Of a DNA stretch of 64,000 nucleotides, positions 29,377-49,128 are shown piece after piece (positions within the stretch are counted from its first letter, which is position 1; each line of letters starts with the position of its first letter). Where the stretch lies: NCBI GenBank assembly GCA_016342755.1, contig JAEINS010000016.1:1-64000 (forward strand). Reading direction: 5' to 3'. The notes beneath the pieces were generated by a model. It saw only the letters and a program-made list of their open reading frames with translations. It was not told the origin of the DNA and ran no database searches. Made by a program: the position numbers and the translations under genes. Origin of the DNA: Melioribacteraceae bacterium. Lineage in GTDB: Bacteria > Bacteroidota > Ignavibacteria > Ignavibacteriales > Melioribacteraceae.

Positions 29377-29412
29377 ATCAAGATGAATAATTATATAATT
29401 ATTCATCTTGAT
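29377..29412 (+). terminator. 36-bp perfect palindrome after the aldehyde dehydrogenase gene
   Basis: Left arm atcaagatgaataattat (29377-29394) is the exact reverse complement of 29395-29412. It lies 33 bases past the stop codon. No strong T-run follows, so it is either a factor-independent stop or an RNA-stabilising hairpin. Confidence 0.65.
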
Positions 29413-33877: not shown

Positions 33878-34691
33878 TGTTTTTTACAATCTCATCAATT
33901 TTTTTTAGTTCAATTAATAAATCTTCAAGTTCTGATAGTGCTAACTGACTTGCAGCATCACTTTTTGCCTCCGAAGGATTTGGATGAACCTCAAGAAATA
34001 ACGCATCGATACCTACGGCTACAGCGGCTTTTGCTAATGGTCTTATATATTCAGGGTTACCTCCGGTAATTTCACCGGTTCCCGGCATTTGTACCGAATG
34101 AGTCGCATCCATAACAACCGGATAACCCAGTTCCCGCATTATAACTAATGAACGCATATCAACAACAAGATTATTATATCCGAACGTTGAACCCCGCTCT
34201 GTGAATAAAATATTATTGTTGCCCGTTGATCTAACTTTTTCCGCAGCATGTTTCATATCACCAGGAGCCAGAAATTGTCCTTTTTTAATATTTACAATTT
34301 TTCCGGTCTTGCCCGCGGCCACAAGTAAATCGGTCTGTCTGCACAAGAACGCCGGAATTTGAAGTATATCAACCACTTCAGCAGCCTTTGCCGCTTCTTG
34401 CTCAGTATGAATATCGGTTACAAGCGGTAGTAACAACTCATCTTTAATCTTTTTTAGTATTGCAAGAGCTTCTTTGTCACCAAGTCCGGTAAAAGAATTT
34501 ACACTTGTTCTATTTGCTTTTTTGTAACTTGACTTAAATATAAACGGGATATTTAGTCTTTCCGTAATCGCTTTAATTTCTTTGGCGGTATTAAAAGTAA
34601 TTTCCTCACTTTCAATAACGCAAGGACCGGCCATTAATACAAACGGATTTCCGCCGCCAAATATTATATTATTAATTTTAACTTTGTTCAT
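33870..34691 (-). CDS. kdsA: 3-deoxy-8-phosphooctulonate synthase
   Basis: 273 residues from ATG 34691 ([12 protein letters not shown]). A longer frame reaches 34736, but that would overlap ruvB more deeply and has no ribosome site. Family landmarks: [32 protein letters not shown]-like [47 protein letters not shown] and [15 protein letters not shown]. It condenses arabinose-5-phosphate with phosphoenolpyruvate to Kdo-8-phosphate in the cytoplasm. It overlaps the end of ruvB by 14 bases and the start of kdsC by 8. Confidence 0.97.
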
Positions 34692-35715
34692 CAAATAAAC
34701 CTTTATCACTATTTGCTTTTTTTCTTGTTTTACCAAATCTGATATAAGCCAAATCGGTTGCTTCTCTGCCTCTTGGTGTACGCTGTATAAATCCCTGCTG
34801 AATTAAAAACGGTTCGTATACTTCTTCAATTGTTCCGGCATCTTCATTTACAGAAACCGCAAGGTTATTTAATCCAACCGGACCGCCGTTAAATTTCTCA
34901 ATAATAGTAAGGATAATATCTTTATCCATCTCATCAAGCCCGTATTCATCCACTTCTAAAGCATCTAGTGCTTTTTTTACAATTGCCAGATCAACAACCG
35001 TTTTATCTTCAAAGTCCGCAAAATCACGTGTTCTTCTTAACAATCTATTAGCAATTCTGGGAGTTCCTCTCGATCTTTTTGCTAATTCGAAAGCAGCATC
35101 TTCATCAATATTTAGATTAAGAATGTTTGAAGAGCGTTTTATAATTGTACATAAAAGTTTGCTGTCATAATAATCGAATCTTGATTTTATCCCAAAACGA
35201 TCTCTCAACGGAGCGGTTAATAAACCGGCTCTGGTTGTTGCACCAATTAAAGTATATTTGGGAAGTGTTAATTGAACTGTACGCGCATTAGGTCCGGAAT
35301 CTATCATTATATCTAAAGTATAATCTTCCATAGCCGAATAAAGATATTCTTCAACTACAGGAGAAAGACGGTGTATTTCATCAATAAAAATCACAGATTT
35401 TTCTTCAAGATTTGTTAGAATTCCCGCAAGATCACCCGGCTTTTCTAAAACCGGTCCAGAAGTAATTTTCAATTTAACGCCCATTTCATGGGCAATTATA
35501 TGTGCAAGTGTTGTTTTACCAAGTCCGGGAGGGCCGGTTAATAAAACATGATCTAAACCTTCATCACGTTTTTTTGCGGCTCCGATAAATACTTTTAAGT
35601 TTTCAACAATTTTTTTCTGACCAGTAAACTCATCAAAGCTTATAGGTCTTAAAGCATGCTCAAACTTTTTATCATCAATTCCAAGAATAGGATTTGTAGT
35701 TTCCGAATCTCTCAT
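34678..35715 (-). CDS. ruvB: Holliday junction branch-migration helicase RuvB
   Basis: 345 residues from ATG 35715, with AAGGTG before it (a GTG at 35721 is inside that site). [15 protein letters not shown] opens the AAA+ domain; Walker A is [12 protein letters not shown], Walker [10 protein letters not shown], sensor [16 protein letters not shown], arginine-finger region [15 protein letters not shown], and the C-terminal winged helix ends [18 protein letters not shown]. With RuvA and RuvC (not present here) it drives branch migration. It heads the Kdo/LPS-export operon, an odd functional mixture held together by overlapping genes. Confidence 0.97.
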
Positions 35716-35738
35716 AAACACCTTAAATATTCAGCCAA

Positions 35739-36875
35739 TTAAGAAGTGATTTTAGGATTTTGTATAAATCTTAAAGTCACCTTTTCTTTAGCGAAAAGTA
35801 ATAAAATAACCGATAAATAGATAATAATTGTAAGAATGAAACTCTCAAAAATAGTAAAACTTTTACCAATATATTTATTGATTCCGGGAAACCAGGCACA
35901 TCCATATAAAATAATAAGATGAACAATATAAATATATAATGAATTTTTACTCACTTTTGATAAAAACTGAGGCAGTTTATAATCATTTTTGAAAATCAGA
36001 CTAATTCCTAAAACAATTATTATTACAATTCCTAACCTGTAAAATACCATTGCCGAATTTGGATGCCAGTAAGAAAACCCGTTTAGGTAATTATTTTCCA
36101 GATGATTAAATAGAAATCCAATAACAAATAAAAATATGGTAACTATGGATAATTTTAACACTCCATTACTGTCTAACCCGGTTTGCGAATTTTTTCTTAA
36201 CCATGAACCAAAATATGCTCCGGCAAAGATATAGCCTAACCATGGAAATAAAGGGAATATTGATCCGGTACCATAGTAAAAATATCCTGCCAAATAATCG
36301 GGCAAAATAGAACTCCAATTAAACGCATTTATAAATGGCGAAATGGCAAATATTATTATTGCTCTCACCAGATATGAAAATGAAAGATCGAATTTTATTT
36401 TTTTTTCAGCCAGATAAATTAATACAATTAATAAAAGACCTATACCAATTACGTGCAGTGCATCGACTGTGAAAAATATTTGCCATTGTTTTGCGGTAAC
36501 ATCACCAAAATAAACAATTGTATGTGTTGGATATCTAAGGAGGTATCCGATTAAAACCAGTAATAATCCTCTTTTGATTCCCTTTTTAACTCTGGGATTA
36601 CTTTTTTCATTTTCGGATTTGATTAATAAATAATTAAATACCGTTCCGGTAGTAAAGAAAAAAATTGGAGCTGTAATTCCTCTAACTAAATTCCAAAGAT
36701 CGAAGAACATAGTACCAGATTGGCGAAATTTTTCACTTAGAAAAACATCAAACGAATGTCCTTCTATCATTAAAAAAACGGCAAGAAGTCTTAATATATC
36801 TAGAAAAACTATTCTTTCTTGTTTTGAATTATTCAACCGGTTTACACTTATTTTTTTGATTGAGGAAAGATACAA
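35739..36875 (-). CDS. DUF1624/HGSNAT-like membrane acyltransferase
   Basis: 378 residues, ~10 TM helices. The opening ERIVFLDILRLLAVFLMIEGHS and NLVRGITAPIFFFTTGTVF match DUF1624 (heparan-alpha-glucosaminide N-acetyltransferase catalytic) proteins more than classical acyltransferase-3. The first codon is uncertain: the longest frame begins at TTG 36875 without a ribosome site, and another TTG lies a short way downstream at RL|NNS; no ATG occurs before residue ~37. Likely transfers acyl groups to an envelope glycan. It stands between ruvB and the T9SS-cargo cluster. Confidence 0.75.
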   Translation of the reverse strand: MYLSSIKKISVNRLNNSKQERIVFLDILRLLAVFLMIEGHSFDVFLSEKFRQSGTMFFDLWNLVRGITAPIFFFTTGTVFNYLLIKSENEKSNPRVKKGIKRGLLLVLIGYLLRYPTHTIVYFGDVTAKQWQIFFTVDALHVIGIGLLLIVLIYLAEKKIKFDLSFSYLVRAIIIFAISPFINAFNWSSILPDYLAGYFYYGTGSIFPLFPWLGYIFAGAYFGSWLRKNSQTGLDSNGVLKLSIVTIFLFVIGFLFNHLENNYLNGFSYWHPNSAMVFYRLGIVIIIVLGISLIFKNDYKLPQFLSKVSKNSLYIYIVHLIILYGCAWFPGINKYIGKSFTIFESFILTIIIYLSVILLLFAKEKVTLRFIQNPKITS

Positions 36876-36952
36876 AATTGAGGAGTTAATTCTTAAAAAT
36901 GAAATTATAGTAATATGAATAAAAACATGAACATGTTTCTCTAAAAAACAAT

Positions 36953-36989
36953 GCCGGTAACATCTTAATACTACTTGATGTACACCGGC
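36953..36989 (-). terminator. Terminator of the first T9SS-cargo gene
   Basis: On the minus strand AGCCGGTGTACATC pairs with GATGTTACCGGC across an ~11-base loop (imperfect), followed by ATTGTTTTTT. It starts 11 bases past the stop at 37000. Confidence 0.7.
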
Positions 36990-36999
36990 TATTAAAATA

Positions 37000-38301
37000 T
37001 TATTTTATCAACAGCATTTTTTTAGCTTCGGAAAATTGATTAGCTGTAATCTTATAAATATAAAATCCGCTGTTTAGTTTTGAAGCATCAAACTTTTGTT
37101 TGTAAACTCCTGCACTTTGTTTTTTATTTACCAGCGTAGTTACTTTTTCTCCGATTAAGTTGAAGATTTCCAGAGTTACAAATCCGTCTCTGGGAATTGA
37201 GTAGGTAATATTTGTAACCGGATTAAACGGATTTGGGAAGTTCTGATCAAGCTCGTAGTTTTCAGCAACATTAAATTCAATTCCATCCAAATTGAAATAC
37301 TCAAATCCGCCGTCAGTATCAATTTGTTTTAATCTATAATTGTAAATCCCACTTGCTGAAACTGTGTTATCAATATATTTATAATATTTAGGTGAATTGC
37401 TATTACCATGTCCTTCAACAAAACCTATTTTTTCCCATTCTGCTAACTGATTACTGTTAACTAACAACTGTCTTCCAACTTCAAATCCGTAGTTATTAAC
37501 TTCAGTAGCCGTTTCCCAATTAAGTGTAATTGATGAGTTTGTTTGGTTAGCTGTGAATGTTGTCAGTTCTACAGGGAGAGGAGCTTGCATCCAACCTGAT
37601 GCAACTCTGATTCCATCAAGGTCAATATGCCCACTCTTAGGGTTTTCTCTAATTTGTAATGAGGATAGTTCTGTAGCATCTGCACCTGTCGAAATTGTAA
37701 CTGATGCTAGAGGTTCAGTGGAAGACAACAAAGGATTTATCCATAATTTTAATAAATCATCGCCTGTTAGAAAATTATAACTTAATACTATTAGATAAGT
37801 TTCATTCTGTGAAAGTACAATGGAAGAGTAAGTTGGCACTATTGTTTTAGCTATGCCAACTAAATATTTGCCCATGATAGTACTTTTTTTTACATAAACT
37901 TTAGCTTTTAATGCATTCCCATCCAGATTTAAGAAATAATCGCCGTCAAGATCCATGTAATCCAAACCATCACTAGAGATATTCATTAAAAATGAGACAT
38001 AAATTGAATTGCCATTTTCAGAAACACTTGTGAATTCTCTCGTTATTCTCTCTCTCCCTGTAGCTCCGCCTTTTACAACTATTTTTTTTCCAATTCCTGA
38101 GGAAGGATAATCGGAATAAGATAAATTTCCTTCAATAACTTGAATAGGCACACTACCACTATTCGATTCCCAATTAGTTGCAAGTGTTTTCAAATTCCCA
38201 GTTGATGTGAAATTAAAATTTTCTTCCCATGACAAGGCTTGTGCTTGAATATTTATTATAGTAAATACCAATAAGAATAAAACAAAAACTAACTTTTTCA
38301 T
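37000..38301 (-). CDS. Secreted T9SS-sorted protein with LPVELTxF linker domain
   Basis: 433 residues. The signal peptide ends NIQAQA (~22). Residues ~23-235 form a beta-rich concanavalin-like domain (WEENFNFTSTGNLKTLA, YLIVLSYNFLTGDDLLKLWI), which may bind glycans. LPVELTTFTANQTNSSITLNWETATEVNNYGF-type linker (~245-275) is the familiar Bacteroidota module before the sorting domain. The type A sorting domain runs ~350-433 (YELDQNFPNPFNPVTNITYSI ... KKMLLIK). It is predicted to be exported to the cell surface or medium. Last of four such genes in a row. Confidence 0.88.
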   Translation of the reverse strand: MKKLVFVLFLLVFTIINIQAQALSWEENFNFTSTGNLKTLATNWESNSGSVPIQVIEGNLSYSDYPSSGIGKKIVVKGGATGRERITREFTSVSENGNSIYVSFLMNISSDGLDYMDLDGDYFLNLDGNALKAKVYVKKSTIMGKYLVGIAKTIVPTYSSIVLSQNETYLIVLSYNFLTGDDLLKLWINPLLSSTEPLASVTISTGADATELSSLQIRENPKSGHIDLDGIRVASGWMQAPLPVELTTFTANQTNSSITLNWETATEVNNYGFEVGRQLLVNSNQLAEWEKIGFVEGHGNSNSPKYYKYIDNTVSASGIYNYRLKQIDTDGGFEYFNLDGIEFNVAENYELDQNFPNPFNPVTNITYSIPRDGFVTLEIFNLIGEKVTTLVNKKQSAGVYKQKFDASKLNSGFYIYKITANQFSEAKKMLLIK

Positions 38302-38367
38302 AATTGCCCCAAGTTATTTTTAGACTGCGAGCTATCCCCATGCTCATTTCGAAGAGAGTATAACGAT

Positions 38368-38413
38368 AATATTTTTAAATGTAAATCAGGTTTTCTTTAC
38401 ATTTAAAAATATT
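38368..38413 (-). terminator. 18-bp stem hairpin after the nuclease-like gene
   Basis: Perfect 18-bp arms (38368-38385 aatatttttaaatgtaaa and 38396-38413) around a 10-base loop, 10 bases past the stop codon at 38424. Confidence 0.75.
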
Positions 38414-38423
38414 CACTATAAGT

Positions 38424-40172
38424 TTACTTTACCAACAAAGCTTTAACTGTCTTCCTAAAATCGCCGCAGTTCATTTTTATAAAGTAAGTTCCTGATGCGA
38501 GGTTCTTCCCATCAAACTTTATTTTGTGCTTACCAGATTTTGCAGTTCCGTTATAAAGTGTTTTTATTTTATTGCCGAGAACATCAAACACATTTATTTG
38601 TACTGAATCGCCTTGACGTGTATCCAAAGATGGAATCGCATATTCTATTGTTGTAGAAGGGTTAAACGGATTTGGATGATTTTGAAATAAATTATATTTA
38701 CTTGGAATATTATCATTTTCAGTATGATTATTAGTTAACGGTTTTACACTAAAATCGGCAACTGTAGGAAGGTGATCTGAAGCTAAAATAACATCAGATG
38801 ATTCAATTCCGTGATTTGATAATGTATCAATATCAATAAAAGGTGTTAATAGTGTAAACGAATTCTTCAGTTCTAGAACAGAATTAGAATGAACAATGTA
38901 ATCCAATCGTCCAGGTGAAAAATCACTATTACCATTATACCAAGTTATAGCAGCAGGAAATCCAGTTGCAAAAGGTTTTACATCAGATAAATCTGTATCA
39001 TCCCAGTCAGGCGAAAATTTTTCACCGTATGAACCTGTGTTTTGAATATCACCATTAATTAATGTTTGTTGTTGCTGAGCATATCCCACTAAATTCATAT
39101 CACCAACAATTACAATAGGAGAATTTTCTTGAAGAGTAAATGGTCCTGTTCCATTTTTCAAATCTCTAATCAATGACATAATGTGATCAATTTCTTTTTG
39201 TCGCTTAAACTCATTATCACAACAAGGCGGATGAGCAGAAATAAAAAGCATTTCTTTGCCAGCATCTTCAAGATCTAACAAAAATGCTGAATTTCCATCA
39301 ATCGGATAAGAGTTGATCACAGGATATTTACCTACATAAATATTATCGCTATTGGTGCTGCTGTAATACCAAGTCTGGTCTGGCAAAAACTCTTTTATTA
39401 AATCGGCCGTTTGCTTTGCGGAGTGATCATAGATTTCTTGAAATCCAATGATATCGGGCTTTAATGCCTGAAAGATTCTCTTAAAATTATTTTTTCTTGA
39501 ACTTTTATGAAGATTATCAAATAAAACATTATACGAAAGAACTCTAATGTTCTCATCATCTTTTTTATCAATAGAATAAGGGAGTTCTGAGTAAATTGCT
39601 GATGTAAACTGAAACTCGAGTCCTCCATCTTCATTCGGAAGCTTATCGCCATCAGTCCTTTCATCTCTAAACAATACATTAAACTTTTCATTATCAAATA
39701 ATAATCTATCTAATATTTTTGTATCTCTATTAATTAAAAACTCAAATCTATTAGAAGTAACTGTTGGCAAAGAAATTAAACCAATATTTGGATGATATAT
39801 AGTTTCGCTATTATTCTCATAATAGTATTTACCTTCTCGTTCACCTATTTTATACTCTAACTCTGCTCCTATTCCATCAACGCTTTTACCAGTTGCTGAA
39901 TTAGCATCAGCATCAATATACATTACTAAATCATTGTTCGACTGGAAATTCATTTCAGTTCCCACTTCTAGGTAAAAATAAATAAACTTATCATCATTTT
40001 GGATTTTCAAATTTCCAAAATCAATATTGATTCCGTCATTTTCTGAGTCTGTGTATAAGGAGCTAATATTATCCCAATCGGAAAAATCTTCGTCCAGATA
40101 TATTGTTTGAGCATTTAATGAGAATGTAAAAAGCAGAACTAAAAATATATATCGAATTGTTTGATTCATCAT
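38424..40172 (-). CDS. Secreted endonuclease/exonuclease/phosphatase-domain protein, T9SS-sorted
   Basis: 582 residues; two adjacent ATGs (40172, 40169) follow GGAG, and the second is better spaced. The signal peptide ends SLNAQ. Residues ~22-200 resemble a CBM9-like beta domain (DWDNISSLYTDSENDGINID). The EEP domain (~208-480) has RVLSYNVLFDN, IIGFQEIYDHS (catalytic Glu), SAHPPCCDNEF, VGDMNLVGYAQ and ASDHLPTVADF, so the metal-dependent phosphodiesterase/nuclease core is complete. The sorting domain (~495-582) begins FQNHPNPFNPSTTIEY. Likely degrades DNA or phosphoesters outside the cell. One of four clustered T9SS cargoes. Confidence 0.88.
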   Translation of the reverse strand: MMNQTIRYIFLVLLFTFSLNAQTIYLDEDFSDWDNISSLYTDSENDGINIDFGNLKIQNDDKFIYFYLEVGTEMNFQSNNDLVMYIDADANSATGKSVDGIGAELEYKIGEREGKYYYENNSETIYHPNIGLISLPTVTSNRFEFLINRDTKILDRLLFDNEKFNVLFRDERTDGDKLPNEDGGLEFQFTSAIYSELPYSIDKKDDENIRVLSYNVLFDNLHKSSRKNNFKRIFQALKPDIIGFQEIYDHSAKQTADLIKEFLPDQTWYYSSTNSDNIYVGKYPVINSYPIDGNSAFLLDLEDAGKEMLFISAHPPCCDNEFKRQKEIDHIMSLIRDLKNGTGPFTLQENSPIVIVGDMNLVGYAQQQQTLINGDIQNTGSYGEKFSPDWDDTDLSDVKPFATGFPAAITWYNGNSDFSPGRLDYIVHSNSVLELKNSFTLLTPFIDIDTLSNHGIESSDVILASDHLPTVADFSVKPLTNNHTENDNIPSKYNLFQNHPNPFNPSTTIEYAIPSLDTRQGDSVQINVFDVLGNKIKTLYNGTAKSGKHKIKFDGKNLASGTYFIKMNCGDFRKTVKALLVK

Positions 40173-40235
40173 AATCTCCAGACTAGTTTTATAGAAATCT
40201 GTATACTATTTTTTAGATAAACAAATTTATTCAAA

Positions 40236-41726
40236 TTATTTTAATAATAAGACCTTAATAGTCTTTTTAAAATTTCCATACCGCATGTTTACAAAGTATG
40301 TTCCGCTTGGAAGATTCTTTCCGTCAAATTTTATTTTGTGATTACCAGATTTAGCAGTTCCGTTATAAAGTGTTTTTATTTTATTGCCAAGAACATCAAA
40401 CACATTTATTTGTACTAACTCTCCATTAGGTATCCCAACGGATGGAATTGAATATTCTATTGTTGTACTTGGATTAAACGGATTTGGATAGTTTTGTTTC
40501 AGATGGAAATTTTGCTGAATAGTTTTAGATTCTAATATACCTGTAATTACTGATTCAATTTGTGAAAAATCTTTATACTTCATTAAATAAACTTTCTGAT
40601 CAATCTCGGCTCCAAAATATAAATTATCATTTTCATCCTTAAAAATTTGATCTTTCAATTGATATTTTAACATTGAATCGAATATTGGCTCGCCGATTAT
40701 ATCTCCGTTATCATCAAAATAATACAGGCTGTTTAATTGCTCTCCCTGATCCATCAGCGAATATAAAACAGCCCGTTTCCCATTACTAAAATTTGAATAT
40801 GAAAAACTACTGTTGCCGAAATAAAAATCTTCAATTCCCATTTTACCGCTATTAATTTCAAAACTTTTTTTATCCAGCAGATTCCCATTTATATCAACTT
40901 TATATGAGTTTAGCTTTAGAGAATCAACTAACAAAATTTGAAATAGAGAATCACTTATGGTAAAACTTCTTAACCAGTGGTTTTCATCATTCATAAAATA
41001 TTGATCAAGATGTTGCAAAGAATCGATAAATGCTTTTGTAATTAGTGTATCTGTACCTGAATACGATTTGAAATACAACCCGGTTTCTCCGTAAAAAATA
41101 TTTAGATAAGGAATTAAATATTCTCCTTTTGTATTAACACTTATAAATGGATTTGAAGGATGCTCTTCTACATTTTCATTTATATCAACTAACTTATTAC
41201 TGCCGTCAACACTAATTTTTCTTACCCAGATTTGTCCGCCAAAATCTGTTACGGAAATTATACTTTCACCCTCTTTAACAAATGCATTTCCAGTTCCAAC
41301 ATAACCTGTTCCGCATTCTGGATAAAAATTTCCTCCTAACGTGAATTTCCCACGCGCAGAATCTTCATTAAAAAAACTCCCGATAAAATCACTCCCATAT
41401 CTAGTAAAGCCGTCTTCATAAGTGACTGAGAATGTAGTATCAAATATTCCAAATGATTCTTCATCGGCTGAATATAATATTGAGCTGTAGTTCCGAATCA
41501 CAAAGTTGCTTCCAATAGCCTCTCCAAACTGGTTATATCTTTGAGCTGCCTTTATAACTGCATCATATCTGTTCTCGCTCCAGGTAAGTAGAAAGCCTTT
41601 GGCGGAATCTGGATAAACTTCTATAATATATTTGTTATAACCTGCTAAATTATAATCAGATGATTTTTCATACTGAGCAACTGACATTGTTGAGATTATT
41701 AAAAGAAATAGGAATATGTATTTCAT
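40236..41726 (-). CDS. Secreted protein of unknown function, T9SS-sorted
   Basis: 496 residues with a signal peptide (ending SVAQY, ~19). Residues ~20-400 contain beta-strand repeats with many Asp/Asn/Tyr residues and may form a propeller, but no family is recognised. The type A sorting domain starts at LKQNYPNPFNPSTTIEYSI (~411) and runs to the end. The DNA for most of that domain (40293-40496) is identical to that in the next gene, which points to a recent exchange or duplication. It ends 63 bases before the nuclease-like gene, on the same strand. Confidence 0.85.
   Translation of the reverse strand: MKYIFLFLLIISTMSVAQYEKSSDYNLAGYNKYIIEVYPDSAKGFLLTWSENRYDAVIKAAQRYNQFGEAIGSNFVIRNYSSILYSADEESFGIFDTTFSVTYEDGFTRYGSDFIGSFFNEDSARGKFTLGGNFYPECGTGYVGTGNAFVKEGESIISVTDFGGQIWVRKISVDGSNKLVDINENVEEHPSNPFISVNTKGEYLIPYLNIFYGETGLYFKSYSGTDTLITKAFIDSLQHLDQYFMNDENHWLRSFTISDSLFQILLVDSLKLNSYKVDINGNLLDKKSFEINSGKMGIEDFYFGNSSFSYSNFSNGKRAVLYSLMDQGEQLNSLYYFDDNGDIIGEPIFDSMLKYQLKDQIFKDENDNLYFGAEIDQKVYLMKYKDFSQIESVITGILESKTIQQNFHLKQNYPNPFNPSTTIEYSIPSVGIPNGELVQINVFDVLGNKIKTLYNGTAKSGNHKIKFDGKNLPSGTYFVNMRYGNFKKTIKVLLLK
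40293..40496. repeat. 204-nt direct repeat, copy A (sorting-domain cassette)
   Basis: Identical base for base to 41797-42000 (constant offset 1504). Codes for the NYPNPFNPSTTIEYSI ... SGTYF part of the T9SS sorting domain. Flanks differ at once on both sides. Confidence 0.95.
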
Positions 41727-41739
41727 TCGAGTTACCTAA

Positions 41740-43596
41740 TTATTTTATCAGCAAAGCTTTAATTGTTTTCCTAAAATCACCGTGATTTATTTGAATAAAG
41801 TATGTTCCGCTTGGAAGATTCTTTCCGTCAAATTTTATTTTGTGATTACCAGATTTAGCAGTTCCGTTATAAAGTGTTTTTATTTTATTGCCAAGAACAT
41901 CAAACACATTTATTTGTACTAACTCTCCATTAGGTATCCCAACGGATGGAATTGAATATTCTATTGTTGTACTTGGATTAAACGGATTTGGATAGTTTTG
42001 GAATATATTAAAATTTCTTGGGATCTCACTAATTTCATTAGTAACTGTTATATCATTATCAACAACTATAAAAGTTTTCCATCCGTCTTCTGTAAAAAGA
42101 ATTTGATTACCAGATAAACCATACGCTTCTTTGTTGGAGATAAAACTAAACCTATCAATATTCACATTAAGAGTATCCCAAGTTTGTCCTCCGTTTTCGC
42201 TAAAATACGAATTACTGGGTGTTGATGCCCAAATACTGTCTTCATTTAATAAATAGTCATCTGTAATGCCAAATAAAAATGTATGATTAGAATTTATATT
42301 TCCCCATGTAATTCCCCCATCTGTTGACTTTATATAATACCCTACAGCTACATAATCAGCATATGAAGCACCTAGAACAATGCAATTCTTTTCAAATAGT
42401 TTACAATTAACTAAATCATAAAGACCAACTATATTGCCAGCTCCAATAGGCAATTTTTTCCAACTTTTGCCACCATCAATTGTTTTATAGGCAGTTCCAC
42501 CACTATTAGCTATTCCATCTGAAACTGAAACGAAAGAAAAATCAAACACTGCACTCTGAAAAATTGAATCTATTTCAGATTTATACCAACTTGCTCCACT
42601 ATTATTCGTGTAATAAATAGCTGAATTAAAATCATTCCCTTCCCCCTGGTGCATTCCAATAAAGCCAACCGTTCTATTTATAAAATGAAAAGTTTTAACA
42701 AGCTCATCCGTAATAGAAAATAGACTAAACCATGTGCTACCACCATCATTTGTAAAGTATAAGTTTTTTACTCCTAAAACCCAGCAATCATTTTCGTAAA
42801 CAAATTGCAATTTTGATAATTTTTCATCATCGCCAAAACTAATATTCTCCCAAGACAATCCTCCATTAGAGGTTATTGAGATTGTTGAATCATTTTTTAC
42901 AATGCCTCCAACATCTCTGTTAAGAAAGAATATTTTAGAGGCTTTCCGGTCATTAATAATAGTCGATAGTTCTTCATTTTGTTTTGGAATTGTTCCCAAA
43001 GTATCACCATTTATTATTGCAGCCTTCAAGGATTTTGTATATTGCCCGCCTTCAGAGGTTAGATGAAAAGTTTTTCCGACTCCTTTCTCAAATATTATTT
43101 GTTCAGAAACTAAGAAATCAGATTCTTGAAATAAATAAGCAGAGTCATCACCAAACAGCTGATAATCATATAATTGATTTTCTGGTCTCGCATCATCTTT
43201 ATCAAGATAGGTTATAAAATATGATATTTCGTCGCATAATTTCCATTCAACTGTTGAATCAGGTTCATAAGTAAAAGAATATATCTGACTATCCTCACCG
43301 CAATCATATAAAAAAACATTTTTTTCATAACAACGAAGTGTATTTGCTAAGGAATCAAATCGGACATGATAAATTCTATTTTGCTCCATCATTGTGTAAT
43401 AGTGAAATCCATTTGACATCACTGTATCACTTATCACTTCCACAATATGTTCTTTAGAAACACAATCAATCTCACAACTGATGGATTCATAAAACCATTT
43501 ATTTCCGATAGCTAAAGGATAAAAGTCAGAATTTGAATTTTGTGCTGAAAGAATATTTGCCCAAACTATTACAAGTGCTAGTAAAAAAAATCTCAT
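41740..43596 (-). CDS. Secreted BNR/YCF48-like repeat protein, T9SS-sorted
   Basis: 618 residues from ATG 43596, which has GGAAGAAG before it; the frame extends to 43623 without a better start. The signal peptide ends LSAQ. Residues ~20-210 are a beta domain; ~215-520 hold repeated BNR/Ycf48-type units with the Asp-box pattern (ITSNGGLSWENISF, YFTNDGGSTWFSL, YYTNNSGASWYKSE, YKTIDGGKSWKKL, KSTDGGITWGNI, YFSENGGQTWDTL), i.e. a beta-propeller. The sorting domain (~530-618) shares 204 identical bases with the preceding cargo gene. Surface or secreted protein; ligand unknown. Confidence 0.9.
   Translation of the reverse strand: MRFFLLALVIVWANILSAQNSNSDFYPLAIGNKWFYESISCEIDCVSKEHIVEVISDTVMSNGFHYYTMMEQNRIYHVRFDSLANTLRCYEKNVFLYDCGEDSQIYSFTYEPDSTVEWKLCDEISYFITYLDKDDARPENQLYDYQLFGDDSAYLFQESDFLVSEQIIFEKGVGKTFHLTSEGGQYTKSLKAAIINGDTLGTIPKQNEELSTIINDRKASKIFFLNRDVGGIVKNDSTISITSNGGLSWENISFGDDEKLSKLQFVYENDCWVLGVKNLYFTNDGGSTWFSLFSITDELVKTFHFINRTVGFIGMHQGEGNDFNSAIYYTNNSGASWYKSEIDSIFQSAVFDFSFVSVSDGIANSGGTAYKTIDGGKSWKKLPIGAGNIVGLYDLVNCKLFEKNCIVLGASYADYVAVGYYIKSTDGGITWGNINSNHTFLFGITDDYLLNEDSIWASTPSNSYFSENGGQTWDTLNVNIDRFSFISNKEAYGLSGNQILFTEDGWKTFIVVDNDITVTNEISEIPRNFNIFQNYPNPFNPSTTIEYSIPSVGIPNGELVQINVFDVLGNKIKTLYNGTAKSGNHKIKFDGKNLPSGTYFIQINHGDFRKTIKALLIK
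41797..42000. repeat. 204-nt direct repeat, copy B (sorting-domain cassette)
   Basis: Identical to 40293-40496. The corresponding region of the gene at 38424-40172 is related but visibly diverged, so the exchange was specific to copies A and B. Confidence 0.95.
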
Positions 43597-43724
43597 CACT
43601 TCTTCCATGATTTTGTTAAACATAAATTAACAAAACATTAATTTAGTTTAAATTATTTTAGGACTAATATTTTTATAGTTGGAGTAATTGAGAGCTACAT
43701 GAAAAATCTGTATAACACCCAATT

Positions 43725-45083
43725 TTAATGATGATTTATAAACTCGTCTTTCTTCAGATAAATTCTTAACCAGAAATATGCAGTTAGTCCGGCTAATAAG
43801 TTTGAAATTAAAGCTGACGCAAAAATACCTTTCACACCTAATAAATATGAGCCGAGATAAGCAAGAGGTACATATAATATAAACATTTGAAGTATCATCA
43901 GTACAGTTGAATTAAAAGGTTTGTTTAATACGTTAAATGCTGTCTGAGAAATTCTTAAAATACTCTGAAACCCATAACCCCATGATACTATGGCAAAATA
44001 TAACGAAGCAATTTCAATCACTCTTAAATCATCATTAAATAATGAGGCAAAGTATTTTCCGATTATCATTAATATTACAGCAGTACAAATTCCCCAGCTA
44101 ATTCCAAACTGATATGCTCTTTTGATAACCAGACGTACTCTATCTATTTTACCTGCACCCTGGTTTTGACCAATATATGGACCAAGAACTACCGAGAGCG
44201 AAATTATAACCGCGGCAAAAAGCATTTCAACTCTTGATGCAACTCCAAAGGCAGCAACAGCTTCTTTACCAAACGAAGCAACCAAAGCTGTAATAAAACC
44301 CATAGCTAATGGAACTACTAAGTTTGTTCCCGCAGTAGGAATACCTATATATAAAAGTTTTTTCCATGAAATTATAACTTCACTTATTTTAGGAACTTTA
44401 AAAGTTATCATGTTATGATGCCGCTTAAGAATGTATAATGATAGCACAAGTGTTAAGGCTCTTGAAATAACCGTAGCAATTGCGGCTCCGGTAAGTTCAA
44501 GTCTGGGAATAATTCCAAATCCAAAAATAAAAATTGGATCAAGCAAAATGTTAACCGCAACAGATGAAACCATTACAATACTAGCTGTTTTAGTATCACC
44601 CGATGCACGAATTGCACTATTACCAACCATCGGTATCACTAAAAAAAACATTCCCGGATACCAGTATAGCATGTAATCCTTTATCAAGCCTAGTGTTTCT
44701 GCATTAGCTCCAATTAAAGTAAACACAGGTTCAATTGTAAAAAGTCCTAGAAAAATAAAACAGGCAACTATAATAAGTGAAAGAACCAGGCTATCAGTTG
44801 TTAACCTTTGAATTTTATATTGATCACCCTCACCAATAGCTTTAGAAATTATTGCAGAGGCTCCCACACCAAGCCCCGTTGCAATACCGGCAACAACCAT
44901 TACAACAGGAAATGTAAAGCTCATTGCCGCAAGCTCTGTTGTACCAAGCTGACCTACAAAATAGGTATCAACAATATTAAACATCATGGTAGCCAGCATT
45001 CCAAAAAACATTTGAAAACTAAGCTTCATCAATTGCTTTGTTACATTTCCTTCGGTTAATATTGCTTTTGTTTTTTTCTTCAT
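43725..45083 (-). CDS. MATE-family multidrug/Na+ efflux transporter
   Basis: 452 residues with 12 predicted TM helices in two six-helix halves. The first half opens with VTKQLMKLSFQMFFGMLATMM; GTTELAAMSFTFPVVMVV and ATGLGVGASAIISKAIGEGD are family motifs, and the second half repeats them (GIPTAGTNLVVPLAMGFITALVASFG, GVASRVEMLFAAVIISL). It expels cationic drugs or metabolites in exchange for Na+ or H+. The ATG has no ribosome site and directly follows a terminator-like hairpin, which may govern its translation. Confidence 0.92.
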   Translation of the reverse strand: MKKKTKAILTEGNVTKQLMKLSFQMFFGMLATMMFNIVDTYFVGQLGTTELAAMSFTFPVVMVVAGIATGLGVGASAIISKAIGEGDQYKIQRLTTDSLVLSLIIVACFIFLGLFTIEPVFTLIGANAETLGLIKDYMLYWYPGMFFLVIPMVGNSAIRASGDTKTASIVMVSSVAVNILLDPIFIFGFGIIPRLELTGAAIATVISRALTLVLSLYILKRHHNMITFKVPKISEVIISWKKLLYIGIPTAGTNLVVPLAMGFITALVASFGKEAVAAFGVASRVEMLFAAVIISLSVVLGPYIGQNQGAGKIDRVRLVIKRAYQFGISWGICTAVILMIIGKYFASLFNDDLRVIEIASLYFAIVSWGYGFQSILRISQTAFNVLNKPFNSTVLMILQMFILYVPLAYLGSYLLGVKGIFASALISNLLAGLTAYFWLRIYLKKDEFINHH

Positions 45084-45093
45084 ATAAAATAAA

Positions 45094-45111
45094 AGCGGAG
45101 TTAAATCCGCT
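45094..45111 (-). terminator. Hairpin abutting the MATE start codon
   Basis: On the minus strand AGCGGA, loop TTTAAC, TCCGCT, then TTTATTTTA up to 45085. It would end lysA transcription, but lies only 10 bases before the MATE ATG, leaving no room for a promoter between them, so it may instead act as an attenuator or leader hairpin of the MATE gene. Confidence 0.6.
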
Positions 45112-45205
45112 CTGGTTAAATAATTATACAGACAAATAATTTCTATTTTGAAGCATGCCTATCGGCAGGAAAAATGACTGAGAAATCTTTACCGCAATTT
45201 TCTAT

Positions 45206-46477
45206 TTAATGTAATCCATCAACAATTTTCTCATCATAAAGAAGATGCTCGAATGTTTCCCGGCTTCTTACAACATAATATTTATCACCATCTACCATTA
45301 CTTCTGCCGGTCTTCTTCTTGCATTATAGTTTGAGGCCATTACCATTGAATAAGCTCCGGCTGACATCACTGCTAATTTATCGCCACTCTTAACTTTAGA
45401 GATCTCTCTTTTCTTGGCAAGAAAATCGCCACTTTCACAAACAGGACCAACTACATCAGCAATAATATCTTCTTCACCATTTTTTATTACTGGTTGTATA
45501 TGATGATAACTACCATAAATACTGGGTCTTAGAAGATCAGTCATAGCAGCATCAGTTACAATAAAGTTTTTGTTATTGTTTGATTTTGTATATAAAACCT
45601 CAGTAAGCAAAACCCCGCCATTTGCAGTAAAGTAACGACCAGGTTCAAACATAATTTCGCAATTAAGTTTCTTAAATAATGGCACAATTGCTTCAGCTAA
45701 CTGAGCCGGAGTAAACGTTGTTTCATCCTTATATAACACGCCCATTCCGCCGCCAATATCAAAATGCTCTATGGATATTCCGTTTGAACGAAGTTCTTCA
45801 ACTAAAGAAGATAATTTTTCAACTGCTTCTATATAAGGTTCAATGGTTGTAATTTGTGAACCAATATGCATATCAATACCAGTCATTTTTATATTTGGCA
45901 TTTTATCACATTCAGTAAAAAACTGTACAGCTTCAGTTGCCGCAATTCCAAATTTATTTTCTGCAAGTCCGGTAGAAATATAAGAATGTGTTTTTGCGTC
46001 TACATTTGGATTAACCCTAAACGCAACATGGGCAACTTTACCTAGTTCACCGGCAATTTTATTAATTAGTTCAACTTCTCCGTAAGATTCAGCTTTTATA
46101 ATTAGAACATCATTTTCCAATCCCATTCTAATTTCATCGGCAGTTTTGCCAACGCCGGTTAACAATATTTTTTTAGGATCAATACCTGCTTTTAATGCTC
46201 TATAAAGTTCACCTGCCGAGTTCACATCAATTCCGCTTCCAAGATCAGCAAAGGTTTTTATCACATTAAGATTAAAATTGGATTTAGACGCAAAAAATAT
46301 TTTATGATTTACGTCTTTAAATGCGTTAGTAAATTCCAGGTACCTGTCCTGAAAAAACTTTTTGCTGTAAACATACAAGGGTGTTCCAAGCTCATCAGCA
46401 ACCGGATTTAATTTTACATCTTCGCAGTAAAGTTCATTTTCTTTATAAATGAAATAATCTGAATTAAAATATCTCAT
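45206..46477 (-). CDS. lysA: Diaminopimelate decarboxylase
   Basis: 423 residues. The PLP-binding Lys is in KIFFASKSNFNLNV (~50-60), in place of the common YAxKAN. Other motifs: GSGIDVNSAGELYRAL, DMHIGSQI, FDIGGGMGVLY, FEPGRYFTANGG, GPVCESGDFLAK and SAGAYSMVMASNYNARRRPAEV. These define fold-III DAP decarboxylases, which make L-lysine from meso-DAP, the last step of lysine synthesis. The gene is divergent from leuS, with 182 bases between their starts. The MATE gene lies downstream. Confidence 0.95.
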   Translation of the reverse strand: MRYFNSDYFIYKENELYCEDVKLNPVADELGTPLYVYSKKFFQDRYLEFTNAFKDVNHKIFFASKSNFNLNVIKTFADLGSGIDVNSAGELYRALKAGIDPKKILLTGVGKTADEIRMGLENDVLIIKAESYGEVELINKIAGELGKVAHVAFRVNPNVDAKTHSYISTGLAENKFGIAATEAVQFFTECDKMPNIKMTGIDMHIGSQITTIEPYIEAVEKLSSLVEELRSNGISIEHFDIGGGMGVLYKDETTFTPAQLAEAIVPLFKKLNCEIMFEPGRYFTANGGVLLTEVLYTKSNNNKNFIVTDAAMTDLLRPSIYGSYHHIQPVIKNGEEDIIADVVGPVCESGDFLAKKREISKVKSGDKLAVMSAGAYSMVMASNYNARRRPAEVMVDGDKYYVVRSRETFEHLLYDEKIVDGLH

Positions 46478-46576
46478 ATTTTATCCCCACATTTAAAATT
46501 TTCACAACAGCTTCAAAAATATGAAATTATATTTTTATCTAATAATTTTTTTATTGATCTCTTTATTTTTCCTCAG

Positions 46577-46624
46577 AAAAGTTAACTTTTTCATCCTTGA
46601 TATCTGGCTCCTATTTAGTTAACT
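46577..46624. promoter_or_regulatory. Pair of AGTTAACT palindromes between lysA and leuS
   Basis: AGTTAACT occurs at 46580-46587 (within a 14-bp palindrome AAAAGTTAACTTTT, 46577-46590) and again at 46617-46624, 37 bases apart. Both lie in the divergent promoter region. This is a candidate operator; there is no direct evidence of a regulator, and GTTAAC is easily made by chance in AT-rich DNA. Confidence 0.3.
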
Positions 46625-46659
46625 TTAGGGTTATTTTTTCACAAAAATCATGAATAATT

Positions 46660-49128
46660 ATGAAATATCCATTTAACGAAGTTGAACAAAAATGGCGTAA
46701 AAACTGGGACGACAATAAATCATTTAAAACTAATTTCACTGATCTTGAGAAGAAACTTTATACTCTTGTGATGTTTATTTATCCTTCAGGCGCTAAATTA
46801 CACTGTGGTCACTGGTACAATTACGGGCCAACTGATTCATGGGCTAGATTTAAGAAGCTGCAAGGACATAATGTATTTGAACCGATGGGATACGATGCTT
46901 TTGGTCTTCCTGCAGAAAATTATGCTATTAAGACTGGGATTCATCCTTACGACAGCACAATGACGAATATAAAAGATATTCGGGAGCAGTTAAAAACTAT
47001 GGGCTGTATGTACGACTGGGATTCAGAACTTATGACTTGTGTTCCTGAATACTACAAATGGAATCAATGGTTATTCCTTCAATTATATAAAAAAGGATTA
47101 GCTTACAGGAAAAACGCGCCGGTTAACTGGTGTCCAAGCTGCCAGACTGTTCTTGCAAACGAGCAGGTTCAAACTGACGGAACCTGTGAAAGATGTGATA
47201 CACTTGTTAATAAAAAGAATTTAACCCAGTGGTTCTTTAAGATTACTGAATACGCTGATGAATTACTTGACGGATTAGAAAAAATTGAATGGCCGGAAAA
47301 AACTAAGCTGATGCAGAAAAACTGGATCGGTAAAAGTAGCGGTGCTGAGATTGAGTTTGATATTGTTGGTCATGATAAAAAAATAAAAGTGTTTACAACA
47401 CGTCCTGATACACTTTACGGTGTTACTTACGTTGTGCTTGCTCCTGAATTAGATTTAGTTCAGGAAGTGACAACTGATGAATATAAAAAAGGTGTTGAAG
47501 ATTATATTGAATCTGTAAAATCACTTTCCGAAATTGAAAGAACTTCAACCACAAAAGAAAAAACCGGTGTTCATACTGGTGCGTTTGCAATTAATCCGGT
47601 TAATGGCGAAAAAGTACCGATCCTAATTGCCGATTATGCGCTTGCAAGCTACGGAACCGGCTGTGTAATGGCTGTTCCGGGTCATGACATTAGAGATTTT
47701 GAATTTGCAAAAAAGTTTGAACTTCCAATCAGAAAAGTAATTCTTGAAGATGGTAAAACCGCTGAAGAAGAATTAACTGAAGCTTTTACTGAAGTCGGGA
47801 CTATGATTAACTCTGATATATTTAACGGAGAACGTTCTGATGCCGGCAAAGAAAAAATCACAAAATATTTGAATGATAAAAATGTAGGAAGACAAACTAT
47901 AAATTACCGATTACGCGACTGGCTAATTTCCCGCCAGAGATATTGGGGAACTCCAATTCCGGTTGTTTATTGCGATTCATGCGGCGAAGTAACTGTTCCA
48001 GAAGACCAGCTGCCGGTTGAACTTCCATACGAAGTTAATTTTTCGCATGACGGCGGATCGCCTCTTGCTACAAATGAAGAGTTTGTAAATTGTAAATGTC
48101 CAAAGTGCGGCGGCGATGCTAAACGTGATGTTGATACTATGGATACTTTTGTTGATTCATCCTGGTATTATTTACGCTATATGAATCCTAAGTTTTCTGA
48201 TGGAATGTTTGATAAAGATCTTGGCGATAACTGGACTCCGGTTGATATGTATGTTGGCGGCGCGGAACATGCTACAATGCATTTATTATACGCAAGATTC
48301 GTTCATAAATTCTTACGCGATATTGGAATGGTTAACAGTGATGAACCTTTCCAAAAGCTGATACACCAGGGAACCATTACTAATGCTGGTGCCAAGATGT
48401 CTAAATCGAAAGGAAATGTAGTTAATCCTGATGAGTTTATTAAAGATGTTGGTGCTGATGTATTTAGAATGTACTTAATGTTTATGGGACCTTATGAACT
48501 TGGCGGTGACTGGAGTGATAAAGGAATTGTTGGTGTTGATAGATTTGTTCAGAGAATTTACCAGATGATTAAAAATCACGAAGGTATTTCAAAAACTAAT
48601 CCGGCTGAAAACACTTATGATATTGGCTCTCTTTCTGAAGAAGAAAAAAATGTTTATCGTAAAGTGAATCAGTCACTTAGTAAAATTGCTGTTGAGATTG
48701 AACATTTCAGATTTAACACTGCTGTTGCTGTTTTAATGGAATTATTAAATGAGCTGACTAAAAATCTTTCCGGCTGTAGAAAAGATCTTAAGACTTATGC
48801 CTTGGAACGAATTACCGTTATGCTTTCTCCATTGGCTCCTCATCTTGGTGAAGAAGCATGGAGTCTTTTAGGAAAAGATACTTCTTTAAATGAAAGCCCG
48901 GTTTGGTTTGAAGTTGATGAAAAAGCTTTAACTGTTGATGAAGTAACAATTGTTGTTCAGATAATGGGTAAAGTTAGAGCCAAATTTGAAATGCCTTTGG
49001 ATAGTGATGAAGCTGCTGTTAGGGAAACTGCAATGAGTAATCCTAACGTGCTGTCGCATATTGAGGGAAAAACTATTGTTAAAGAGATTTACGTTAAAAA
49101 TAAAATTTATAATATAGTAGCAAAGTAA
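46660..49128 (+). CDS. leuS: Leucyl-tRNA synthetase
   Basis: 822 residues. The HIGH motif is AKLHCGHWYNYGPTD (~47), KMSKS is AKMSKSKGNVVNPDEF (~575). Zinc sites are CPSCQTVLANEQVQTDGTCERC and CDSCGE/CKCPKCGG. The CP1 editing domain (~220-410) includes VFTTRPDTLYGVTYVVLAPE and GTGCVMAVPGHDIRDFEFA, so post-transfer editing is intact. The C-terminal domain (VVQIMGKVRAKFEMP) ends with the usual VKNKIYNIVAK-type tail. It charges tRNA-Leu. Plus strand, followed after 102 bases by serS. Confidence 0.97.
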   Translation: MKYPFNEVEQKWRKNWDDNKSFKTNFTDLEKKLYTLVMFIYPSGAKLHCGHWYNYGPTDSWARFKKLQGHNVFEPMGYDAFGLPAENYAIKTGIHPYDSTMTNIKDIREQLKTMGCMYDWDSELMTCVPEYYKWNQWLFLQLYKKGLAYRKNAPVNWCPSCQTVLANEQVQTDGTCERCDTLVNKKNLTQWFFKITEYADELLDGLEKIEWPEKTKLMQKNWIGKSSGAEIEFDIVGHDKKIKVFTTRPDTLYGVTYVVLAPELDLVQEVTTDEYKKGVEDYIESVKSLSEIERTSTTKEKTGVHTGAFAINPVNGEKVPILIADYALASYGTGCVMAVPGHDIRDFEFAKKFELPIRKVILEDGKTAEEELTEAFTEVGTMINSDIFNGERSDAGKEKITKYLNDKNVGRQTINYRLRDWLISRQRYWGTPIPVVYCDSCGEVTVPEDQLPVELPYEVNFSHDGGSPLATNEEFVNCKCPKCGGDAKRDVDTMDTFVDSSWYYLRYMNPKFSDGMFDKDLGDNWTPVDMYVGGAEHATMHLLYARFVHKFLRDIGMVNSDEPFQKLIHQGTITNAGAKMSKSKGNVVNPDEFIKDVGADVFRMYLMFMGPYELGGDWSDKGIVGVDRFVQRIYQMIKNHEGISKTNPAENTYDIGSLSEEEKNVYRKVNQSLSKIAVEIEHFRFNTAVAVLMELLNELTKNLSGCRKDLKTYALERITVMLSPLAPHLGEEAWSLLGKDTSLNESPVWFEVDEKALTVDEVTIVVQIMGKVRAKFEMPLDSDEAAVRETAMSNPNVLSHIEGKTIVKEIYVKNKIYNIVAK

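Follow-up and report, generated by a model that had tools for sequence, protein, structure and literature searches.

Here, we report that two adjacent T9SS cargo genes of a Melioribacteraceae bacterium share an identical block of 204 bases within their sorting domains, which probably represents a gene-conversion tract, and that clustered sorting domains in these bacteria probably serve as direct repeats for homologous recombination. The genes lie in the window, i.e., the whole stretch of 64,000 nucleotides that was analysed (contig JAEINS010000016.1 of assembly GCA_016342755.1). The cluster comprises four tagged genes, all on the minus strand. The gene at 41740-43623 (627 aa) combines Sortilin-Vps10/YCF48-like matches with a sorting domain, and the gene at 40236-41726 (496 aa) has the sorting domain as its only Pfam match over the cut-off. 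The third gene, at 38424-40172 (582 aa), encodes an endonuclease/exonuclease/phosphatase domain and a sorting domain, and the fourth, at 37000-38301 (433 aa), carries a more diverged sorting domain (37012-37239) that exceeds the TIGR04183 cut-off. The C-termini of genes 40236-41726 and 41740-43623 score above the curated cut-offs for T9SS type A sorting domains, with 32.8 and 33.9 bits for TIGR04183 (cut-off 23) and 35.6 and 38.7 bits for PF18962 (cut-off 27), respectively. Their cargo parts are unrelated, as the initial annotation had stated; blastp detects no similarity between them at E<=1e-3, and their Pfam matches are not the same.

Positions 40293-40496 and 41797-42000 (minus strand) form a maximal exact match of 204 bases at an offset of 1504, which reproduces the identity that had drawn attention to these genes. 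Its boundaries are as sharp as had been described. On the cargo (5') side, identity is near-random immediately outside the match, and the QNYPNPFNP motif forms the 5' end of the tract at the point where homology stops; on the 3' side, 23 of the 54 remaining coding bases differ. The block had been taken to encode the sorting domain, which holds for part of the domain only, as in both genes the last 18 codons lie outside it and form, together with the stop codon, a putatively unconverted 3' end (40236-40292 and 41740-41796, both minus strand). The identical segment is thus embedded in homologous segments and identity is lost abruptly on both sides, the pattern of ectopic gene conversion. None of 2000 codon permutations of the gene pair gave a run as long as 204. 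When the genome was searched with the block at the DNA level (best 40 of 169 candidates scored), only the third sorting domain of the cluster (38424-38684, minus strand) came near among the 42 own-genome matches listed. This domain is 80% identical and hence diverged, in agreement with the initial annotation, and has a 35-base stretch from 38542 in common with both copies of the block.

Core and tail of the sorting domains tell conflicting histories, a further mark of gene conversion. The core of gene 40236-41726 equals that of gene 41740-43623 (0/204 mismatches), whereas the tail of gene 41740-43623 is nearer to that of gene 38424-40172, to which it is similarly close along its length (33/204 mismatches in the core, 12/54 in the tail). 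The tail of gene 40236-41726, in turn, mismatches these two genes at 23/54 and 20/54 positions and shows only background similarity to other sorting domains of the genome. Gene conversion with gene 41740-43623 as the probable donor and gene 40236-41726 as the probable recipient is the best reading of this pattern, the direction being read from one 54-base tail.

The initial annotation had proposed that such an event would let new cargo acquire a secretion tag. The tails of the two genes differ yet are homologous, and both genes had therefore been tagged before the event; a segment duplication by which untagged cargo acquires a tag is not what the window pair displays. The same tails, together with the scores over the family cut-offs, speak against tag capture, in which a recent sorting-domain copy would have been inserted at the 3' end of an untagged gene. 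Observations in favour of capture come from elsewhere in the genome. In the C26 trio, identity continues for ~110 bases beyond the stop codon in one pair (a GH9 enzyme and a protein without another Pfam match) and for ~11 bases in the other two pairs; in the C12 pair it spans the domain plus 74 bases beyond the stop codon; and unlinked pairs with unrelated cargo also occur (C12_309884/C28_25518, 87%). The whole-domain copies that include 3' flank, i.e., the C12 pair and one pair of the C26 trio, are compatible with tag acquisition. However, the two C12 cargo parts are in part related to each other (33% over 203 residues), and overall we consider tag capture unlikely.

Gene conversion between neighbours is also supported by the distance dependence of sorting-domain similarity. 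Pairs less than 5 kb apart were regarded as near and were counted if their cargo was unrelated and their sorting domains were at least 75% identical. The own genome is a draft of 56 contigs, and G067 and G048 are single-contig genomes. At least 150 sorting domains were found in the own genome (best 150 of 173 candidates); 149 entered the analysis, the remaining one being dropped for lack of a stop codon in its stretch, and the median identity of their 11,026 pairs was 55%. Seven of 28 near pairs in this genome were homogenised, as compared to 0/108 among pairs separated by 5-30 kb and 8/10,750 among more distant ones; two striking pairs, C9 and C12, with partly related cargo (30% over 135 residues and 33% over 203, respectively) stand outside the seven. 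Corresponding counts in G067, where 122 of 132 hits were entered (nine weakest and one contig-end copy omitted) and 121 used, were 2/44, 0/176, and 3/6,862. In G048, the sample consisted of those 103 domains, among the best 150 of 290 candidates, that had a further hit no more than 6 kb away; the counts were 9/44, 4/98, and 12/4,488, the far pairs being a biased sample. Label permutations equalled the near counts in 0 (own genome), 2 (G067), and 0 (G048) of 5000 cases. All 18 homogenised near pairs, which fall into 10 clusters, are same-strand pairs, with only 14 near pairs on opposite strands available for comparison. One candidate repeat, a longest common stretch of 119 bases between G067_1197092 and G067_1198048, was discarded as the two stretches simply overlap.

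Exclusive same-strand orientation, and related cargo in some tandem neighbours, would also be in line with whole-gene tandem duplication, after which the cargo would have diverged fast while selection kept the tag diverging slowly. Yet the absence of any synonymous difference within the 204 bases, beside 23 differences in the next 54, is a pattern that selection on the protein cannot produce, and neighbours carry different Pfam families where their cargo is identified, which makes this scenario very improbable. The initial annotation had left gene conversion and segment duplication side by side; sharp ends, the core/tail conflict, distance dependence and recurrence in two single-contig genomes argue for conversion. 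Collapse or mis-join of the assembly at a repeat could be suspected in a draft, as several contig ends share 43-76-base repeats, some of them in or near sorting-domain genes, and as minor differences between the 204-base copies may have been lost during assembly. However, two direct copies with one intervening segment should permit only one linear order, copies that are 94-97% alike were kept separate in the same assembly, and the pattern recurs in the single-contig genomes G067 and G048, so that an assembly artefact likewise has very little probability.

The extent of the shared tracts differs from pair to pair. Variants include 182 exact bases shared by GH3 and GH5 enzymes ahead of diverged tails, 245 exact bases extending 74 bases past the stop codon, 131 exact bases internal to the domain, and 88-89 exact bases from the domain start. 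Tract ends are thus not fixed as in a mobile gene cassette, and the term exchangeable cassette, under which the block had been introduced, is better inverted; the sorting domain has the appearance of a homology arm. A dedicated mobile cassette, moved by a site-specific recombinase or as a transposon-like unit, is barely credible, for although several tracts share a 5' end at the start of QNYPNPFNP, their 3' ends are found at points from the domain interior to beyond the stop codon, some tracts begin inside the domain, no inverted repeats of at least 40 bases were found within 34000-48000, and block matches in 293 other genomes of the class either are limited to the first 38-60 bases or have an identity of 69-75%. 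The same search led us to reject interspecies movement of a cassette, the full block being matched in 0/293 genomes (two matches scored per genome). Also rejected was the idea that the NYPNPFNP motif contains a signal conserved at the DNA level. At several of its positions, codon choice deviates from the usage of the genes in which it lies, e.g., CCA for the first Pro in 64% versus 32% in the own genome; preferred codons, however, differ among the own genome, G067, and G048, and shared descent or homogenisation gives the better fit.

Recombination at sorting domains is further indicated by the close genome pair G067 and G079, for which 44 of the 77 domain loci of G079, the best-ranked ones, were inspected. 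Seven of 13 synteny breaks lie inside the zone around a sorting domain, which makes up 14.2% of the aligned span (binomial P = 9e-4, presuming uniform break positions, and breaks near gene ends would be expected from any gene gain or loss). Merging the breaks at L365 (two), L380 (two), and L387 (three) leaves nine events, six of them at domains. Four events, at L365, L380, L393, and L408, fall at the start of or inside the domain coding sequence. They include a cargo swap upstream of a kept domain at L365, where identity is 94.8% in the 5' flank as far as the start codon and 99.0% over 1734 bases of domain and 3' flank, while the cargo DNA is unalignable. They also include a one-gene indel at L408/L409 that left a chimeric sorting domain; here, the domain of a 302-aa gene in G067 begins with the 5' part of one G079 domain and continues with the tail and 3' flanking DNA of the following one. 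At L380 and L367 the shorter form is that of G079, an 80%-complete draft in which an indel could be simulated if a repeat loop was skipped during assembly. The break at L367 lies at the end of the domain, and that at L368, 75 bases past the domain, is non-discriminating. A break at L392 was discarded as the end of a paralogous match, and this locus shows no break under a stricter cut-off; the cut-off also drops L391 (where the break falls within the domain, at 90% identity, and would have helped) and L373 (collinear). G067 stretches extend only ~400 bases downstream of isolated domains, and searches in G023, G079, and G067 brought the close pair G067/G079 to light but no further close genome by which the indels could be polarised.

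Conversion in the same genome pair is evident at L379, where the domain has 27/231 mismatches as compared to 13/1500 and 32/1500 in the flanks (P = 7e-14). Differing sites match the neighbouring domain at 21/39 positions in G079 and 14/39 in G067, which singles out no clear donor and which point mutation alone would partly give as well. Over the 32 loci with a match spanning the domain, divergence amounts to 143/7752 (1.8%) in the domains, 1073/43967 (2.4%) upstream, and 452/27300 (1.7%) downstream. Because summed domain divergence is not raised and L379 is the only clear converted domain between unchanged flanks among these loci, such events are not frequent on this time scale, most domains being unchanged. 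The comparison of G067 and G079 suggests that the tags are sites of gain, loss or swap of secreted proteins, and it points to the cargo rather than the tag as the part that is swapped, lost or gained.

No close relative of the window organism with both gene 40236-41726 and gene 41740-43623 was found. For the cargo of gene 40236-41726, a 36% homologue in G017 was the sole match listed from 58 genomes including the own one, and six peptide patterns retrieved no orthologues from the contig collection scanned, in which near records may be absent. A search via LeuS gave 75% as the best value, and the MATE neighbour had its best relative at 50% among 57 family genomes including the own one.

Ectopic gene conversion is well known from bacterial multigene families, e.g., tuf and rRNA genes or pilE/pilS. 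The events described here resemble these cases in their short tracts, sharp ends and homogenised copies, but they are confined to a secretion tag of ~85 codons in otherwise non-homologous genes. No title or abstract start in the open-access literature searched describes T9SS sorting domains as a route of recombination between genes for unrelated cargo. The nearest parallel is provided by the KLIKK proteases of Tannerella forsythia, six secreted enzymes encoded in two gene clusters with virtually identical T9SS C-terminal domains (PMC4404884), i.e., near-identical tags in clustered genes as in our case. As far as the excerpted text of that study goes, its authors regard the likeness as unusual, suggest a recent common origin with fusion of proteases to shared parts, and call for more research on that origin. 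Its excerpt treats one species at the protein level and contains no recombination analysis, whereas we describe DNA tracts, mosaics and junctions, and other genomes and enzyme families (PMC4404884). Homologous recombination also alters the T9SS cargo genes for gingipains and HagA in Porphyromonas gingivalis, a species capable of gene conversion, where, according to the sections available, domain rearrangement takes place among related proteins, whose adhesin and catalytic domains are exchanged (PMC5266723). In our genes, by contrast, it is the sorting domain that is shared, and it is attached to unrelated cargo. In polymorphic toxin systems, variable modules likewise recombine beside a conserved part, but the polarity is reversed, as the consulted part of that report has C-terminal cassettes recombining, and in our genes the C-terminal tag is constant and the N-terminal cargo varies (PMC3482391).

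In the model we propose, 68 sorting-domain codons of gene 40236-41726 would have been overwritten by a copy from the adjacent gene 41740-43623, and the 3' end of the tract would mark where the repair tract stopped, which is why the recipient may have kept its own tail. Clustered T9SS sorting domains would act as direct repeats, presumably through the ordinary recombination enzymes of the cell. Homologous recombination between them would homogenise neighbouring tags by conversion, and it could turn cargo over by deletion or insertion of single genes with a chimeric domain at the junction, or replace the cargo part upstream of a kept domain. One mechanism would presumably underlie both the events between G067 and G079 and the event in the window.

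Each genome examined encodes 77 to at least 150 proteins with this sorting tag, and their cargo is mostly unrelated. The tracts and junctions offer a concrete, testable route by which cargo may join or leave the tagged set, namely homologous recombination through the tag, and this route could possibly explain the virtually identical tags of the KLIKK proteases, as these are portrayed in the excerpt of PMC4404884. A further implication is that trees built from sorting domains, as well as short-read assemblies of such clusters, could be misleading. In our judgement, chances are even that the DNA of sorting domains provides a permanent platform for recombination in Ignavibacteria, and perhaps in all cases in which T9SS cargo genes are clustered. 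Conversion would keep neighbouring tags recombinogenic, crossing-over would add, delete or swap secreted proteins and always leave an in-frame tag, and the surface proteome would evolve by replacement of cargo behind a constant tag.

Two neighbouring minus-strand genes, gene a (40236-41726) and gene b (41740-43623), share an identical 204-base block at their 3' ends (40293-40496 and 41797-42000), with the position and length given in the initial annotation. Both encode proteins with a C-terminal T9SS type A sorting domain that scores over the curated cut-offs. The diverged third neighbour also described there is gene c (38424-40172, minus strand), whose domain is 80% identical, and a fourth neighbour (37000-38301) has a more distant sorting domain. 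The cargo is unrelated by Pfam content: YCF48/Vps10-like in b, an endonuclease/exonuclease/phosphatase in c and no other match over its cut-off in a. The boundaries of the block are as sharp as first claimed, as identity is lost immediately on the cargo side and falls to 31/54 in the last coding stretch. Elsewhere in the window, a repeat scan found a 36-base perfect palindrome (29377-29412).

Sorting domains of this genome have a median pairwise DNA identity of 55% (149 listed domains), and the longest identical run of the a/b pair was reached in none of 2000 codon permutations. A search for further copies, as the initial annotation had suggested, returned the third neighbour (80%) as the next best among the 42 own-genome matches listed, with 40 of 169 candidates scored; nearly all of the remaining 39 start at the domain start and most are shorter than 70 bases. 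Among 294 genomes of the class, its own included, the full block was found only in its own genome; 24 others match it at E<=1e-12, with matches that either cover the first 38-60 bases or span 119-201 bases at 69-75% identity.

The block (core) and the last 54 coding bases 3' of it (tail) give conflicting relationships. In the core, a and b differ at 0/204 positions and each differs from c at 33/204, whereas in the tail b and c are closest (12/54 mismatches, versus 23/54 for a and b and 20/54 for a and c). The tail of a is hardly closer to c (34/54 matches) than to unlinked domains (32). The simplest history would be an old local relationship between b and c and a different original sorting domain in a, 68 codons of which were overwritten from b; the short tail suggests this direction. 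Gene conversion or segment duplication had been proposed as a way for new cargo to acquire a secretion tag. On the basis of the core/tail conflict conversion is retained, probably between two already tagged genes, and tag acquisition by untagged cargo is not.

The pattern recurs within the genome. Among domains with unrelated cargo (blastp E>1e-3), near pairs (<5 kb apart) have a mean identity of 0.627 compared with 0.546 for far pairs, and 7/28 near pairs reach 75% identity, compared with 0/108 at 5-30 kb and 8/10,750 beyond, a count never given by 5000 label permutations. These seven pairs fall into three clusters: the three genes of the window, a trio on contig C26 (94-97%; one GH9 enzyme, the other two without Pfam match except tag-related) and a pair on C19 (80%; a CotH and an Lcl_C protein). 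Immediately upstream of the domain, over 60 bases, identity in these pairs is 0.33-0.57. Two further near pairs were left out because their cargo is partly related: a GH3 and a GH5 protein, each carrying CBM6, are identical over the first 182 bases of the domain and have diverged tails after them, and the exact match between the genes of a caspase-like protein and its neighbour is 245 bases long and extends 74 past the stop. Exact repeats of at least 50 bases comprise 12 domain-domain cases in the 54 kb domain zone versus 17 others, including long tandem repeats, in the remaining 676 kb of fetched sequence.

A 973-base exact direct repeat lies in the stretch around a sorting-domain gene on C8 (42021 and 43332). 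Two small contigs (C33:2686 and C45:2126) share 1267 identical bases, including a cargo part and a sorting domain, which could represent a recent gene copy, a strain variant or an assembly duplicate. Several contig ends (among C6:1, C50:39783, C7:137513, C17:105078, C45:3390, C36:1, C11:131688 and C17:1, the window start) share 43-76-base repeats, and some of these ends fall in or near sorting-domain genes, which may therefore be breakpoints of the draft assembly that hide more near-identical copies.

The near-pair excess is not merely an effect of this assembly, as it is also found in two single-contig genomes. In G067 (same family), 2/44 near pairs with unrelated cargo reach 75%, compared with 0/176 and 3/6,862 of more distant pairs (permutation 2/5000), and in G048 (same order) 9/44, compared with 4/98 and 12/4,488 (permutation 0/5000). 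The G048 domains at 1020833 and 1025503 share 131 exact bases between a diverged 5' end (13/45 mismatches) and a slightly diverged 3' end (7/76), and the G067 domains at 2724652 and 2726948 share 88 followed by a diverged remainder. All 18 such pairs in the three genomes (10 clusters) are same-strand, which is no test of orientation because opposite-strand near pairs are few (14). A large array in G048 (C1:3565000-3646000) also encodes long tagged proteins; most of their sorting domains are at least 90% identical, and their cargo ranges from near-identical to unrelated. In all three genomes, codon choice in the NYPNPFNP motif is unlike that of the genes carrying it, and the preferred codons differ by genome.

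Recombination through the domain is also suggested by comparison of G067 with G079, a draft genome of the same genus (120 contigs, 80% complete), at 44 of 77 G079 sorting-domain loci. Of these, 37 match fetched G067 stretches at >=93%, and 28 of the 37 are unbroken within the extent of those stretches. A zone reaching from 40 bases before the domain to 90 bases after it makes up 14.2% of the aligned span and contains 7 of the 13 breaks (binomial 9e-4) or, when breaks are combined into events, 6/9 (5e-4). Breaks near gene ends are expected under any gene turnover; four of the nine events (L365, L380, L393 and L408) lie at the start of or inside the domain coding sequence. At L365, identity is 94.8% over a 380-base stretch ending at the start codon and 99.0% over a 1734-base stretch that begins with the domain, and the cargo between is not alignable as DNA (proteins match only 28% over 119 residues). 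At L408/L409, G079 has three tagged genes (302, 733 and 648 aa) and G067 only the first and last; the domain of the G067 302-aa gene starts like its G079 orthologue, and its end and 3' flank resemble those of the 733-aa gene that G067 lacks. L380 and L367 each have one extra tagged gene in G067; the junctions lie within the domain or where it ends, and the extra cargo at L380 has no full-length match in G079. At these two loci the G079 assembler may have skipped a repeat loop; at L408/L409 the shorter form belongs to the single-contig genome, and the change at L365 is flanked by matching sequence on either side. At L393, tail and 3' flank differ from within the domain onward. The break at L368, 75 bases after the domain, is not diagnostic, and those at L378, L395 and L387 lie 1385, 216 and at least 746 bases (an indel) away.

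Since G067 and G079 diverged, conversion appears to have been infrequent. A domain-specific excess of changes (P<0.01) was found at 4/32 loci whose best match spans the domain and at none of the other 28. The excess at L367 is explained by its junction, and those at L395 and L378 are not significant after correction for 32 tests. At L379, 27/231 domain positions have changed, compared with 13/1500 and 32/1500 for the two flanks (P 7e-14). Its differing sites match the neighbouring domain at 21/39 in G079 and 14/39 in G067. The matches occur in runs, a pattern compatible with partial conversion on repeated occasions; it does not prove this, because mutation alone yields many such matches. Summed over the 32 loci, divergence is 1.8% in domains, 2.4% upstream and 1.7% downstream, and there is therefore no general excess in domains.

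No close relative of the window's organism was found in the collections searched; the nearest by LeuS are nine MAGs (63-75%) labelled Melioribacteraceae, Ignavibacteriae, Ignavibacteria, Bacteroidetes or bacterium. None of the titles and abstract openings listed by our literature searches describes recombination through this domain between genes with unrelated cargo. The closest known case is the KLIKK protease set, with virtually identical sorting domains whose origin is left open in the part of the source available (PMC4404884). Porphyromonas gingivalis is called capable of gene conversion, with rearranged adhesin domains in T9SS cargo, in the accessible part of another report (PMC5266723).

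We propose that tandem tagged genes provide direct repeats of ~200-270 bases, whose best conserved part is the 5' end (NYPNPFNP), and that the cell's recombination enzymes would presumably act on them in three ways. Non-crossover repair, as read from the window, would copy part of one domain into the next, with a 5' limit of the tract often at the end of homology and a variable 3' limit. Crossover between neighbours, as read from G067 and G079, would lose or gain one gene and leave a chimeric domain that is still in frame. Swapping of the cargo, suggested by the same two genomes, would result from recombination in which one arm lies in the domain and the other in the 5' flank.
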